Below, piece after piece: positions 12,285-63,561 of a stretch of DNA of 64,000 nt. Within the stretch, counting starts at the first letter, position 1. The number at the start of each line of letters is the position of its first letter. Both the position numbers and the translations under genes were made by a program. The notes under the pieces were generated by a model. It was not told the origin of the DNA and searched no databases. It was given only the letters and a program-made list of their open reading frames with translations. This DNA comes from Thermococcus argininiproducens (GTDB taxonomy: Archaea; Methanobacteriota_B; Thermococci; Thermococcales; Thermococcaceae), in NCBI RefSeq assembly GCF_023746595.1, contig NZ_CP080572.1, forward strand, positions 1,534,530 through 1,598,529. Direction: 5' to 3'.

Positions 12285-12297
12285 TTTTTTATCTTTT
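12285..12297 (+). terminator. T-rich terminator of pepQ
   Basis: TTTTTTATCTTTT follows the pepQ stop codon directly, just ahead of the non-coding elements. Confidence 0.45.
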
Positions 12298-12303
12298 AAG
12301 AGT

Positions 12304-12333
12304 CCCGTTCTTTAGGGTGGAGATGTTGTGAAC
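12304..12333 (+). repeat. IS605-type right-end/omega-RNA hairpin relic (copy E)
   Basis: CCCGTTCTTTAGGG can fold as a short hairpin and is followed by TGGAGATG. This closely matches copy D at 62830 (TTGTTCTTTAGGGCAGG). The tail after the hairpin has diverged from GGAGGTCAGC, so it looks like a decayed copy. No transposase gene is adjacent. It sits right after the pepQ terminator. Confidence 0.5.
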
Positions 12334-12361
12334 TACCCAAGGAAACTTTTAAACCACCGAA

Positions 12362-12374
12362 ATTTTTTAAACTT
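12362..12374 (+). promoter_or_regulatory. putative TATA box for the downstream non-coding RNA
   Basis: ATTTTTTAAACTT, preceded by a purine-rich CCGAAA (BRE-like), lies about 25 nt ahead of the point where base composition turns GC-rich. It predicts a transcript beginning near 12392. Confidence 0.45.
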
Positions 12375-12391
12375 ATAGGATAGCGTAATAA

Positions 12392-12663
12392 GATCCCAAA
12401 GGGGCCACTTAAGAACAACCCCTGTAAGGGAGTTTCATTGTGTCCTCCTGTCTTTGCGAGGAAGACGCCGTAAGGCGTCCTTTATAATATATCACCGCTG
12501 AGATGGTTGAAACTCTTAGAATGATCTTTGAAGCGATAACCTCGAACCGCTCTGCGGTAGGGGTAACGGGCCGGAGACCCGGCCCTCGGGCTGAACCGAA
12601 AGCGGTAACGCGAGTAAGTGATGGGCCCGTAAACATTTCTCTCGCGGTGAGGAGGAGGTCAGC
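12392..12663 (+). ncRNA. GC-rich structured RNA, IS605 omega-RNA-like (copy A)
   Basis: A GC-rich 270-nt block in an AT-rich genome. Visible hairpins include GACGCC-GTAA-GGCGTC (12463-12479), CCGC-TCT-GCGG (about 12548-12558) and GGGCCGG-AGAC-CCGGCCC (about 12568-12585). It ends with GGTGAGGAGGAGGTCAGC. The stretch from the first hairpin to GGGGTAA is clearly homologous to copy B at 21860-22131 (minus), with loop changes and indels that fit RNA better than protein. The tail resembles the 3' end of TnpB-associated omega RNAs. High-GC non-coding RNAs are known from Pyrococcus screens; whether this is one of those named families cannot be checked here. The 5' end is estimated from the TATA box. 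Confidence 0.6.
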
Positions 12664-13933
12664 TTATTATCTCCCCTAATAGATACGTAGAGGTGGCTTT
12701 TGTAACTTTCACTTTCATGAATTCTCCTACTGGAGCTTCGGGAAGAATAATATCCTTATAGTTCATGGTTCTTCCTTCTATTCCACCTTTCTTACCTTCG
12801 TTATGTGTTAAGACTAGAATCTCCTTACCAACGTACTTTTTATTTATTTCGTAGCTTATGGCCAATCTAAGTCTATGGAGATATCTAGATCGTTCCTTTA
12901 CTCTCCATCCCACAATCTGATCTCGCATCTTAGCAGCCAAGGTACCCGGTCTTGGTGAGAAGCGCGAGACATTTATTTTATCAGGCTTTATTCTCTCAAT
13001 AAGCTCCACTGTGTGTTGAAAAGCCTCTTCGTTCTCGCCTGGAAACCCTACAATTATATCAGTGTTTAAGTTGAGATTATCTATGTGCTTCCTGAATTCC
13101 CTAACTATTTCCTCGAACTCTTCTACGGTGTATGTTCTCCCCATTTTCCTTAAAATTTCATTATCTCCACTTTGAACCGGAAGATGAAGGAATTTGTAGA
13201 TTTTTTCATTTTTATAAACTTCTATGATCTCATCAAGTATTTTTATCGCATTGTTTGGGTTCATCATGCCCACTCTAACCCTAAAGTCCCCCTCTATTGC
13301 TGTGATTTCGTCTAAAAGCTCAGCTAAGTTTGTACCTATATCAAACCCATAACATCCCGTGTCTTCACTGGAAAGTTGTATCTCTTTGTATCCCCTATTT
13401 ATTGCATCTTTTACCCATTTCACTATAAGCTCTGGCCTGTAACTTCTTAAAACACCTCGTGCAAAACGAGTTGCACAGTAAGTACAGGCATTTAAACACC
13501 CCTCACTTATAGGAACTACAAAAACAACCCCACTTTTCCACACTCTTGGAAGTTCAAGTTTGTCGATGTTCCGATCTTTCCATCCCTCAACACTAACGAG
13601 CTTTCCTCCCCTTTCAGCGATCTCTATTGCCTCAATGATCCTATCCAAACTTTTAACTCCAAGAATTCCAGAAACCCTCTCATCTATAGCCTGCAGGTTA
13701 ATGTGGGGTAAGCACCCTGTCACTATAACTTTCTTTCCGCTGTCAAGAAGCTCTTTGATTCTTTTAACCATATGCTTTTCCGTCGGATCTTTAACAGCAC
13801 ATGTGTTTACAATAGCATACTCTGCACTATCTAAATCAACTATTTCATGATTTGCTCTAAGGAGTAGAGCCTCTATCATTTCAGCATCTGCTTTATTCCT
13901 TGTGCAACCGTAAGTTTCTAAATAAATCCTCAT
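12659..13933 (-). CDS. tRNA t6A methylthiotransferase (MiaB-like/CDKAL1 type)
   Basis: Radical-SAM enzyme predicted to convert t6A37 to ms2t6A37 in tRNA. The 424 residues have an N-terminal UPF0004 domain with three cluster Cys (YGCTRNKAD, VNTCAVKDPTE, VTGCLPH), the radical-SAM motif CLNACTYC near 150, and a C-terminal TRAM domain. The TGA stop (12659-12661) is formed by the terminal GGTCAGC of the convergent non-coding element, so its last codons are set by that insertion. TATA at about 13954-13965 suggests a leaderless mRNA. Confidence 0.9.
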   Translation of the reverse strand: MRIYLETYGCTRNKADAEMIEALLLRANHEIVDLDSAEYAIVNTCAVKDPTEKHMVKRIKELLDSGKKVIVTGCLPHINLQAIDERVSGILGVKSLDRIIEAIEIAERGGKLVSVEGWKDRNIDKLELPRVWKSGVVFVVPISEGCLNACTYCATRFARGVLRSYRPELIVKWVKDAINRGYKEIQLSSEDTGCYGFDIGTNLAELLDEITAIEGDFRVRVGMMNPNNAIKILDEIIEVYKNEKIYKFLHLPVQSGDNEILRKMGRTYTVEEFEEIVREFRKHIDNLNLNTDIIVGFPGENEEAFQHTVELIERIKPDKINVSRFSPRPGTLAAKMRDQIVGWRVKERSRYLHRLRLAISYEINKKYVGKEILVLTHNEGKKGGIEGRTMNYKDIILPEAPVGEFMKVKVTKATSTYLLGEIIS

Positions 13934-21471: not shown

Positions 21472-21522
21472 CATACTTTTACCCTAAAGAGCAAAGCCTT
21501 CAGAAGAAAAGATAGAAAAACT

Positions 21523-21750
21523 TCAAATGGCTATCATTGTTGAAGTCATCTGTATTTCTGGCATTTTTCTTATTCTTTCAGTTATGAAATGGTCAAGATC
21601 TTTTAGGGTTTCAGTTTCAACCTTGACTATAAGGTCATATTCCCCATAGACTACATAGGCTTCCTTTACCTCTGGATAGGTAAGAAGTTTTTCCATAACT
21701 TCTCTTTCCTTCCCAGCGGCTGTCACCATCAAAATAAACGCCGTCACCAT
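21523..21750 (-). CDS. stand-alone AsnC/Lrp ligand-binding (RAM) domain protein
   Basis: 75 residues covering one RAM (Lrp/AsnC C-terminal) alpha-beta domain: AFILMVTAAGKEREVMEKL, then EAYVVYGEYDLIVKVETET, and the end PEIQMTSTMIAI. The DNA-binding helix-turn-helix half of Lrp proteins is absent. Such stand-alone RAM proteins form oligomers and may sense amino acids or modulate full-length Lrp proteins. A second RAM-like reading frame is at 63775-63993. Confidence 0.85.
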   Translation of the reverse strand: MVTAFILMVTAAGKEREVMEKLLTYPEVKEAYVVYGEYDLIVKVETETLKDLDHFITERIRKMPEIQMTSTMIAI

Positions 21751-21859
21751 AGCTTACCACCAATAATATTTGGTCTTTTGACTATTTAAGCTTATCGTCG
21801 TCGATAAAGAAAAAATGACGAATTAGGGGAAGCTAATTTACTTTGCCACTAGTGCCTCT

Positions 21860-22131
21860 GGTCTCCTCCCCTACCGTGAACGGTGAGGGTTCTAGTGAGT
21901 TAACCCCCTAACCACTGCCGGGAAGGTTTGAGGAATTCTCATCAGACAGGCCTTTGAGAAGGATTCTCCGAGCCCCTCCGGAAGGGCCTTTTCCCAATTA
22001 CCCTCCGCAAAGCGGTTTGGGTTATCGTTTCAAAGGTTACTCCTAGAGTTTTCAGCCGCCCAAAGCTGGTTTTGAGAAGACGCCTTATGACGTCCTATCC
22101 CAAAGAGCAAGGCCCGCCTTTAATTGGATTT
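21860..22131 (-). ncRNA. GC-rich structured RNA, IS605 omega-RNA-like (copy B)
   Basis: Minus-strand homologue of copy A at 12392-12663. Read 5' to 3' it has GACGTC-ATAA-GGCGTC (about 22078-22094), then GGCTGAAAACTCTAGGAGT, then ACCTTTGAAACGATAACCC, then a CCGC-TTT-GCGG hairpin (22005-22015). It ends with ACCGTTCACGGT (21873-21884) and GGGGAGGAGACC. The inner block to GGGTAA is shared with copy A, while the 3' third differs in length. A TATA-like CGAAATTAAAG at about 22152-22162 (minus) could drive it. Coordinates are estimates. No tnpA or tnpB is adjacent. Confidence 0.55.
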
Positions 22132-22386: not shown

Positions 22387-23037
22387 ATGATTGATCATCT
22401 AATAAGCAAAGAAGAGCTTGAAAGATTCAAGCACTTTATGCACATGAAAGGTATTGAGAATTTAGAGGTTTATTCAAAGGGAACCACAAGCTTAATTTTC
22501 CTTGGGAGGCTGGAAAACAAAGACGTCATTATAAAATTAGAAAGAAGAGATGCACCTAGAAGAAATTTTCAAAAAGAGGTAAAGATTCTAAGATTTCTCG
22601 AGGGGAAAGGAATAACCCCCCATTTGGTCGATTATGGAAGCTTTGAAAATAGAGAGTTCTTAATAAGAGAATTCGCAAAGGGAGAGCCCATACTCTATGC
22701 AATACCTGAGAAGAAGCATCTTCTAAAAATCCTCGAAAAGATGTACAAACTTGATATCCTTGGGGTTGATCATGGTCAAATACAGGGAGGAAAGCACATC
22801 ATAATTGGAACTGACGTATGGGTGATTGATTTTGAAAAAGCGAGCCTTAAGAGAAAAACCAAAAACCTCACATCCGCGATGGCAATGATATTTCTTAATG
22901 AAAACTCCATTTCAAGAAGAGTTCGAGAAAAGTTTGAGATAGGCGAAGAATTTCTAACAACTCTCCAAGAGAAGCTCCAAAAATATAAAGAAACACACGA
23001 TATTACGGAACTTAAAGAGCTACTATCTAGCCTTTAA
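22387..23037 (+). CDS. RIO/Bud32-like Ser/Thr protein kinase (COG2112 type)
   Basis: 216 residues, a minimal kinase. The ATP-binding Lys is in KDVIIKLERRD (about residue 55). The C-helix region is KEVKILRFLEGKGITPHLVD. The catalytic loop is replaced by LGVDHGQIQGGKHIII, and the metal-binding DFG by DFEKAS. These features match the archaeal predicted kinases of COG2112, whose targets are unknown. Its 3' end overlaps the convergent membrane-protein gene by 15 nt. Confidence 0.8.
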   Translation: MIDHLISKEELERFKHFMHMKGIENLEVYSKGTTSLIFLGRLENKDVIIKLERRDAPRRNFQKEVKILRFLEGKGITPHLVDYGSFENREFLIREFAKGEPILYAIPEKKHLLKILEKMYKLDILGVDHGQIQGGKHIIIGTDVWVIDFEKASLKRKTKNLTSAMAMIFLNENSISRRVREKFEIGEEFLTTLQEKLQKYKETHDITELKELLSSL

Positions 23038-58560: not shown

Positions 58561-58619
58561 GATGACCCCCTCAACACCAGATGTTGCCTCTAATGGGATT
58601 ACATTTTTCTTTTGAAAGT

Positions 58620-58649
58620 CTCGCCGTTCACGGCGGGGAGGAGGTTAGC
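58620..58649 (+). repeat. IS605-type right-end/omega-RNA hairpin relic (copy C)
   Basis: CGCCG-TTCA-CGGCG is a perfect hairpin followed by GGGAGGAGGTTAGC, nearly identical to the tail of copy A. It ends exactly where the nadM stop codon begins. No longer element or transposase is present, so only the end survives. Confidence 0.6.
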
Positions 58650-62802: not shown

Positions 62803-63561
62803 TTACTGACCCTTTTTTTCTTTTTTCAAGCCTTGTTCTTTAGGGCAGGAGAGGTCAGCGTTTAACTCTTCAATTATTACCAATACCTCCCTTAAATCAC
62901 TGATTACAAACTCACATTCCCTCCATGCCTCTTTTCTTTCTCCTTTTTTATCAAGGAGAATACTCAGCATCTCAACTTGTCTAGCACCAACACAATCCTT
63001 TAATGGATTGTCCCCTACATATATGGCTTCTTCACCTCTAATCCCAGCCTTTTTCAATGCAACTTCAAATATCCTGGGATGAGGCTTATAGAATCCAGCT
63101 TCCTCACTTGTAGTTATGCCATCAAATAAATGAATGATCCCAAGGGATTCAAGCTGTGCTTTTAGATAATCGTTATCAGAATCTGTGATAATACCAATAT
63201 AATATCCCTCTCTCTTTAGCGTTTCAAGAGTTTCAACAACTTCATCATAAAGTTTTCCATACTTTTGGTGCATCCTTAAATGGATCTCCCAAAAATCAGG
63301 AGAAAATTCCAACCCATGTTTTTCTAGCAACGCTCTCAAAATTTCTTCTTCTATCATTCTGAGAGGTTTGTATGGCATCCCAGCATATTCTTTGAACTTC
63401 TCCCTTGTGCGTTCCTCATATTCCTCCCAAAACTTTAGAACATCTATATTTTCTGCTTTACTTTTATTAAGGACTTCCTTTATTATGTTTTGGTGAGTTA
63501 TGTCTTCGTATTCTTTGCTGAGCAAAGTCCCAACGAAATCAAAAAATACTGCTCGTATCAT
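62803..63561 (-). CDS. HAD-superfamily hydrolase with element-derived tail
   Basis: 252 residues. HAD motif I is AVFFDFVGTLLSKE (nucleophile Asp), motif II is IGIITDSDNDY, motif III Lys in TSEEAGFYKPHPRIFE, and motif IV is AIYVGDNPLKDC. A GGTGAT site lies seven nt before the ATG at 63561. The last 18 residues (ADLSCPKEQGLKKEKKGQ) are encoded by the minus strand of a hairpin relic (62830-62859) plus an A-rich stretch, so the original C-terminus was replaced. Substrate unknown. Confidence 0.85.
   Translation of the reverse strand: MIRAVFFDFVGTLLSKEYEDITHQNIIKEVLNKSKAENIDVLKFWEEYEERTREKFKEYAGMPYKPLRMIEEEILRALLEKHGLEFSPDFWEIHLRMHQKYGKLYDEVVETLETLKREGYYIGIITDSDNDYLKAQLESLGIIHLFDGITTSEEAGFYKPHPRIFEVALKKAGIRGEEAIYVGDNPLKDCVGARQVEMLSILLDKKGERKEAWRECEFVISDLREVLVIIEELNADLSCPKEQGLKKEKKGQ
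62830..62859 (+). repeat. IS605-type right-end/omega-RNA hairpin relic (copy D)
   Basis: GCCTTGTTCTTTAGGGC folds as a hairpin, followed by AGGAGAGGTCAGC. This is close to copies C and E. It lies on the plus strand within the 3' end of the HAD gene. Confidence 0.6.

Follow-up and report, generated by a model that had tools for sequence, protein, structure and literature searches.

Blocks 1 and 2, two structured RNA segments in the 64,000-nucleotide stretch of Thermococcus argininiproducens DNA analysed here (the window), belong, as judged from sequence comparison, to a Thermococcaceae family of small transposons that are non-autonomous and of the IS200/IS605 type. As reconstructed from its copies, an intact member is composed of a left-end hairpin, usually a TATA-like box, and a structured RNA of ~320 nt that ends GGAGGAGGTCAG and is followed by host DNA; the 3' two thirds of this RNA would be the scaffold of a TnpB omegaRNA, with the downstream host sequence as its predicted guide. 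We consider it likely that these are IS605 elements of the non-autonomous kind, each supplying an omegaRNA that programs TnpB produced elsewhere and thereby helps the element to be retained.

The homology of the two blocks, proposed in the initial annotation, is borne out: a profile of 51 relatives, from which block 1 was excluded, was scanned across the window and returned block 1 with E 9.8e-62 and block 2 with E 1.8e-27, together with a third, short match at 58610-58647. The parts ascribed to them - a GACG[CT]C hairpin, a CCGC-TNT-GCGG hairpin, a GATAACC segment and a GGAGGAG end - are present, and both are indeed structured, the fold of block 1 beating 200/200 dinucleotide shuffles (z -3.9) and that of block 2 198/200 (z -3.1). 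They are not the isolated pair they were taken for, being two of many copies: BLAST finds 11 intact solitary-type copies in the genome (a single contig of 1,946,248 bases), block 1 included, and a match to a T. argininiproducens copy is present in 74 of 94 Thermococcaceae genomes. Block 1 lies between an M24 peptidase (prolidase type) gene on one side and a convergent MiaB-like radical-SAM/TRAM gene on the other, and block 2 between ORFs of 75 residues (21523-21750, -) and 216 residues (22387-23037, +).

Two insertions and their empty sites

Whilst the existence of the blocks stood, their ends did not, and were corrected via empty sites in close relatives to 12293-12662 (+) and 21858-22112 (-). 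In the closest relatives, G079 and G084, whose MiaB-like proteins are 97% and 95% identical to that of the window, the region of element 1 is uninterrupted. With a slash for the junction, the site reads ...TTTTTTAT/TTTATTATCTCCCC in G079, ...TTTTTTTAC/CTTATTATCTCCCC in G084 (TTTAC/CTTATTATCTCCCC, also given as TTTAC/CTTATTATC) and, filled, ...TTTTTTAT/CTTTTAAGAGTCCC...GGAGGAGGTCAG/CTTATTATCTCCCC in the window. The window thus differs from both relatives by a 370-bp insertion on the 3' side of a TTTAC-type motif, with zero target duplication, and such a clean insertion is the signature of IS200/IS605 elements; the target motif of IS608 is TTAC. The features of the window are as follows, T7-T12 being tnpB elements of this genome that are described below.

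12288..12292, +: left junction, with TTTAT as target motif or TAM (TTTAC in the G084 empty site), from the empty-site comparison (L094, L095)
12293..12662, +: element 1, complete, non-autonomous, IS200/IS605-type, 370 bp, no tnpA or tnpB; G079 and G084 are empty at the orthologous site, with no target duplication
12293..12325, +: left end, imperfect hairpin CTTTTAAGAGTCCCGTTCTTTAGGGTGGAGATG, a decayed form of GAAAGCCTCGCCCTTTAGGGCGGGGATG; same left-end type in T7-T12 and in relatives' tnpA+tnpB elements
12358..12376, +: archaeal BRE/TATA-like box CGAAATTTTTTAAACTTAT, at the place where relatives carry one
12384..12662, +: structured RNA, predicted omegaRNA scaffold plus extra 5' domain (52-sequence alignment A2 and the profile match above)
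12464..12479, +: GACGCC-GTAA-GGCGTC hairpin of the 5' domain, covarying helix 4, not found in tnpB loci by nhmmer
12520..12662, +: omegaRNA proper, homologous to tnpB 3' coding end plus right end by nhmmer; start approximate
12638..12662, +: right end, hairpin plus GAGGAGGTCAG; last bases the same in tnpB elements and solitary copies
12663..12682, +: predicted guide CTTATTATCTCCCCTAATAG, identical to what immediately follows TTTAC at the empty site of G084
12659..12661, -: TGA at which the radical-SAM/TRAM (MiaB-like) gene 12659-13933 stops, contributed by the right end of element 1
21858..22112, -: element 2, a chimeric relative shortened on its 5' side, without left end or promoter region; neither G079 nor G084 has it
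21838..21857, -: guide position of element 2, AGGCACTAGTGG...; G079 there has TTTAC/AAGCACTATTGG
58603..58648, +: 46-bp single-hairpin remnant or mini-element of the same family, TTAC/...GGGGAGGAGGTTAG
62810-62858, +: 46-bp single-hairpin form

The predicted guide of element 1 agrees with the G084 empty site at 20/20 bases, next to TTTAC, and is antisense to the last codons of the MiaB-like gene, which in G079 and G084 ends in its own TAA, unlike the window copy. Elsewhere in the genome there is no TAM-adjacent match to this guide with fewer than three mismatches; the only candidates for another target were 3-mismatch matches, all without the TTTAC motif, and these were rejected. Downstream of the same MiaB-like gene, in the neighbourhood of the element 1 insertion, two further genomes carry single-hairpin forms (G080 and G027; L098, L118).

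Element 2 is, on the evidence of its profile scores, a decayed chimera whose 5' half is of the solitary type and whose 3' half is of the tnpB type: the 3' half scores 86.5 bits as tnpB-type omegaRNA versus 50.0 bits as solitary type, and the 5' half matches the solitary-type profile only. This chimerism suggests that the scaffolds of solitary and tnpB-type RNAs are interchangeable. The G079 site reads GGGTTTAC/AAGCACTATTGGC and that of the window ...GACCAG/AGGCACTAGTGGC; compared with G079, the left end of the element plus some tens of flank bases are gone, and the sequence in the guide position differs from the empty site at two of the first 12 bases. A TATA-like box had been reported ahead of each block, which holds for block 1; block 2 has lost its promoter region, and its RNA is probably not made from its own promoter. 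Adjoining block 2 is a degenerate single-hairpin form, CTTCTGAAGGCTTTGCTCTTTAGGGTAAAAG, at about 21485-21525 (-), which is older than the block, since it occupies the same place in G079 and G084.

The solitary RNA and its tnpB relatives

Covariation across homologues, set beforehand as a test of the initial annotation, proved strong. RNAalifold predicted 44 pairs on 52 aligned solitary copies, with two-sided changes at 17 of the 44; in this alignment we counted 108 two-sided cells versus 37 (sd 5) in shuffles, a control that ignores the relatedness of the copies, and 96.3% of cells were paired, falling to 38-57% when partners were slid, a control that keeps it. Ahead of the RNA, a TATA-like box occurs in 41/58 copies, versus 4% of random windows; among the copies without one, several have CTTAAAT boxes and a few have none. 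A sigma-70 promoter scan is uninformative for archaea.

Across the family the subterminal hairpins are GAAAGCCTCGCCCTTTAGGGCGGGGATG on the left and CCCTTCAGGGCGGGGAGGAGGTCAG on the right, imperfect in element 1 and with the left one lost in element 2. In 35/52 relatives, versus a background of 5%, TTAC is found no more than 24 bases before the left end, mostly at a distance of 5 or 10-12 bases, and each copy closes with the same kind of right end, after which host sequence follows that mostly differs from copy to copy. Two copies are identical at 406/411 positions with unrelated flanks, which shows that transposition, or spread, has been recent. One solitary element, with the guide start ATGATTAAGGAAACCATCAT, is common to three related genomes (L087, L089, L090) and is the strongest candidate for a copy that is old and perhaps retained.

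The genome holds 19 TnpB-domain matches above cut-off, and no PF07282 match among them falls inside the window. Eight of the genes, T5-T12 (L035, L026, L049-L054), form one TnpB clade of 68-90% identity, and their elements end GGGGAGGAGGTCAG or a near variant, most of them starting GAAAGCCTCG...GGGGATG, as solitary copies do. Between position ~97-147 and position ~313-319 (of 319), the solitary-RNA profile aligns with the tnpB 3' coding end and the sequence downstream, with E values of 7e-6 to 7e-32 and in most tnpB genes of the T5-T12 clade (nhmmer); the 3' ~200 nt of the solitary RNA is, judging from these matches, homologous to the omegaRNA of the local tnpB genes. The guide-RNA-like reading of the blocks therefore gains from homology to real tnpB 3' ends within the same element ends, and from the elements of relatives that, between those ends, carry a Y1 tnpA and a tnpB of the T5-T12 clade (L138, L141, L143, L144, L146, L148-L150, L158, L159). 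In T. argininiproducens the sole tnpA is of a different subfamily and sits beside a tnpB of another clade, so that the family can probably no longer mobilise itself there. Near the solitary copies of relatives we found no clear tnpB match within the fetched flanks, usually 1.1-1.5 kb; in T. argininiproducens two of the solitary copies each lie close to a tnpB element that is distinct from them. The tnpB element T6 (L035, G000:C1:22242-24128) adjoins a solitary copy in divergent orientation.

Could the blocks simply be the 3' coding ends of tnpB genes, an outcome that had been named in advance as counting against the initial annotation? Homology of this kind is confined to the 3' ~200 nt and does not extend to the rest of the solitary RNA. 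The objection is only half borne out, because the RNA here lies outside any tnpB gene, behind its own TATA-like box, and has an extra 5' domain of about 100-120 nt for which nhmmer finds no counterpart in tnpB loci (profile positions 1 to about 100, the GACGCC hairpin included). Plain decay of tnpB 3' ends was rejected on the strength of that domain, the covariation and the TATA-like box.

The genome also contains, at about a dozen places, 46-bp forms in which TTAC is followed by a fused left/right end hairpin and GGAGGAGGTCAG; the pattern has 19 genome matches versus 0 in a reversed control, some of them being the right ends of larger elements. Judging from their make-up, these forms look like deletion scars, left when the hairpins of the two ends, which are nearly identical, recombined.

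HgcC and other known systems

At the gathering threshold, an Rfam search returned only tRNA. Over their ends, both blocks resemble a single Rfam family, HgcC (RF00062), with 14.3 and 15.0 bits, below its gathering threshold of 50; its model covers only the 3' 130 nt of the RNA, and the window copies share with HgcC the 3' part and the GGGGAGGAGGUCAG end. HgcC-like loci in one relative's genome, which we take to be that of T. kodakarensis, score 31-44 bits, also below 50. There are six of these loci, three of them beside or inside tnpB genes, in agreement with the description of T. kodakarensis HgcC RNAs, some in transposase genes and two without (PMC4247193). One of the six is of the solitary type (E 1.1e-68), has no tnpB within the fetched 3.1 kb, and fits HgcC4 by description. 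HgcC4 was seen by dRNA-seq with a transcription start that is that of the host gene (PMC4247193); it supports expression of such RNAs indirectly, and gives no proof of an element's own promoter.

The link of HgcC RNAs to transposases is thus already published, as are two further precedents. PATEs are ends-only IS605 elements, and a PATE-like element of Halanaerobium keeps the tnpB 3' end plus the right end (PMC7290912); element 1 is likewise short and non-autonomous, with IS605 ends and without transposase genes, whereas the solitary family is a conserved RNA gene with a TATA-like box, covarying structure and many copies family-wide. RAGATH-18, an orphan predicted RNA, was eventually recognised as a guide RNA of TnpB, with 64% of copies adjoining an IS607 tnpB and a third not doing so (PMC11061315), although the IS607 reRNA belongs to a different scaffold family. 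The solitary RNA shares with the omegaRNA of IS200/IS605 TnpB an overlap with the tnpB 3' end in homologues, a stop at the right end, and a predicted guide in the downstream flank with its target beside a TAM; it differs in lacking a tnpB in its element, and in its own TATA-like box and extra 5' domain. In the openly accessible literature that we searched, we found neither a publication equating HgcC with omegaRNA nor a description of promoter-bearing omegaRNA-only elements.

A proposed guide RNA for TnpB made in trans, and the rival readings

TnpB ribonucleoproteins of IS200/IS605 elements cut the empty site left after excision, beside the TAM, and repair restores the element; as Thermococcales cells carry many chromosome copies, templates for such repair exist. 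We posit that the solitary elements exploit this in trans. The RNA, that of element 1 included, would be made from the element's own promoter and bound by the TnpB of one of the eight related tnpB elements; the complex would then cut any chromosome copy or incoming DNA still carrying the empty site, TTTAC plus guide, and repair from an element-bearing chromosome copy would restore or spread the element. Loaded into a T5-T12 TnpB, the RNA of element 1 would protect element 1, and could convert incoming empty alleles.

Perhaps, instead, the omegaRNA is a functionless leftover of a tnpB element in a passive element of the PATE or MITE kind, spread solely through recognition of its end hairpins by TnpA. 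Ends-only IS605 elements are known (PMC7290912), and this genome holds its dozen or so 46-bp forms without an RNA body; yet covariation across 52 copies extends to internal helices distant from the ends, one position is enriched in TATA-like boxes, and the 5' domain is absent from tnpB genes, none of which a leftover would need, and we regard the passive element as unlikely. Less likely again, and in our view improbable, is a co-opted regulatory RNA, one that guides a TnpB-family protein or acts antisense on nearby genes, as on the mRNA 3' end of the MiaB-like gene at block 1. The guide of block 1 is indeed antisense to the end of that gene, three genomes (L087, L089, L090) share an insertion whose guide begins identically, and the guide RNAs of TnpB-derived TldR proteins are known to act as regulators (PMC13418256). 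However, guides differ from copy to copy, set by the landing site; and, unlike in a TldR-type system, the window holds no PF07282 match and the element 1 guide has no near-perfect, TAM-adjacent second match in the genome. The empty sites in G079 and G084 rule out an old conserved regulatory locus for both copies: as these are young mobile-element insertions, old co-option of blocks 1 and 2 is unsupported, and of the initial annotation what endures is a structured, omegaRNA-like, IS605-derived RNA with no transposase gene inside, while co-option of these two copies finds no support. Finally, HgcC could be a free-standing ncRNA of unrelated function that transposons carry by chance, as might be supposed from its being the sole Rfam family like both blocks over their ends; HgcC-like matches, however, lie directly 3' of tnpB genes and share the right end of the element, and the RNA spans the very end that defines the transposon, which makes this a very remote prospect.

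Returning to guide RNAs that programme TnpB in trans, a bolder form of the proposal is one that we put forward tentatively, at somewhat short of even chances: a class of transposon with a promoter-driven guide RNA as its sole gene, parasitising the TnpB of its full-size relatives so as to force its way into empty alleles, and explaining HgcC, with the 46-bp copies as its scars. Such scars would escape cleavage, as the TAM is kept apart from the target. If this were true, HgcC, an orphan archaeal RNA family, would be explained as a TnpB omegaRNA, and a selfish element could carry a guide RNA as its sole cargo while relying on a nuclease in trans. The dozen or so solitary guides and the eight tnpB genes of one genome would then amount to a natural TnpB system of many guides, with TTTAC as the predicted TAM, testable in a genetically tractable Thermococcus.

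A feature of the partner proteins speaks against use of their TnpB in trans. T5-T12 show weak but significant similarity to the sequences of solved TnpB and Cas12f proteins, and carry VGYPKG in place of the VEDL that provides the RuvC-II glutamate in T1. Our literature search found nothing on a relocated catalytic glutamate in TnpB; the glutamate of a DEAFTS motif, conserved in all eight proteins just before the zinc ribbon, may stand in for the RuvC-II residue.
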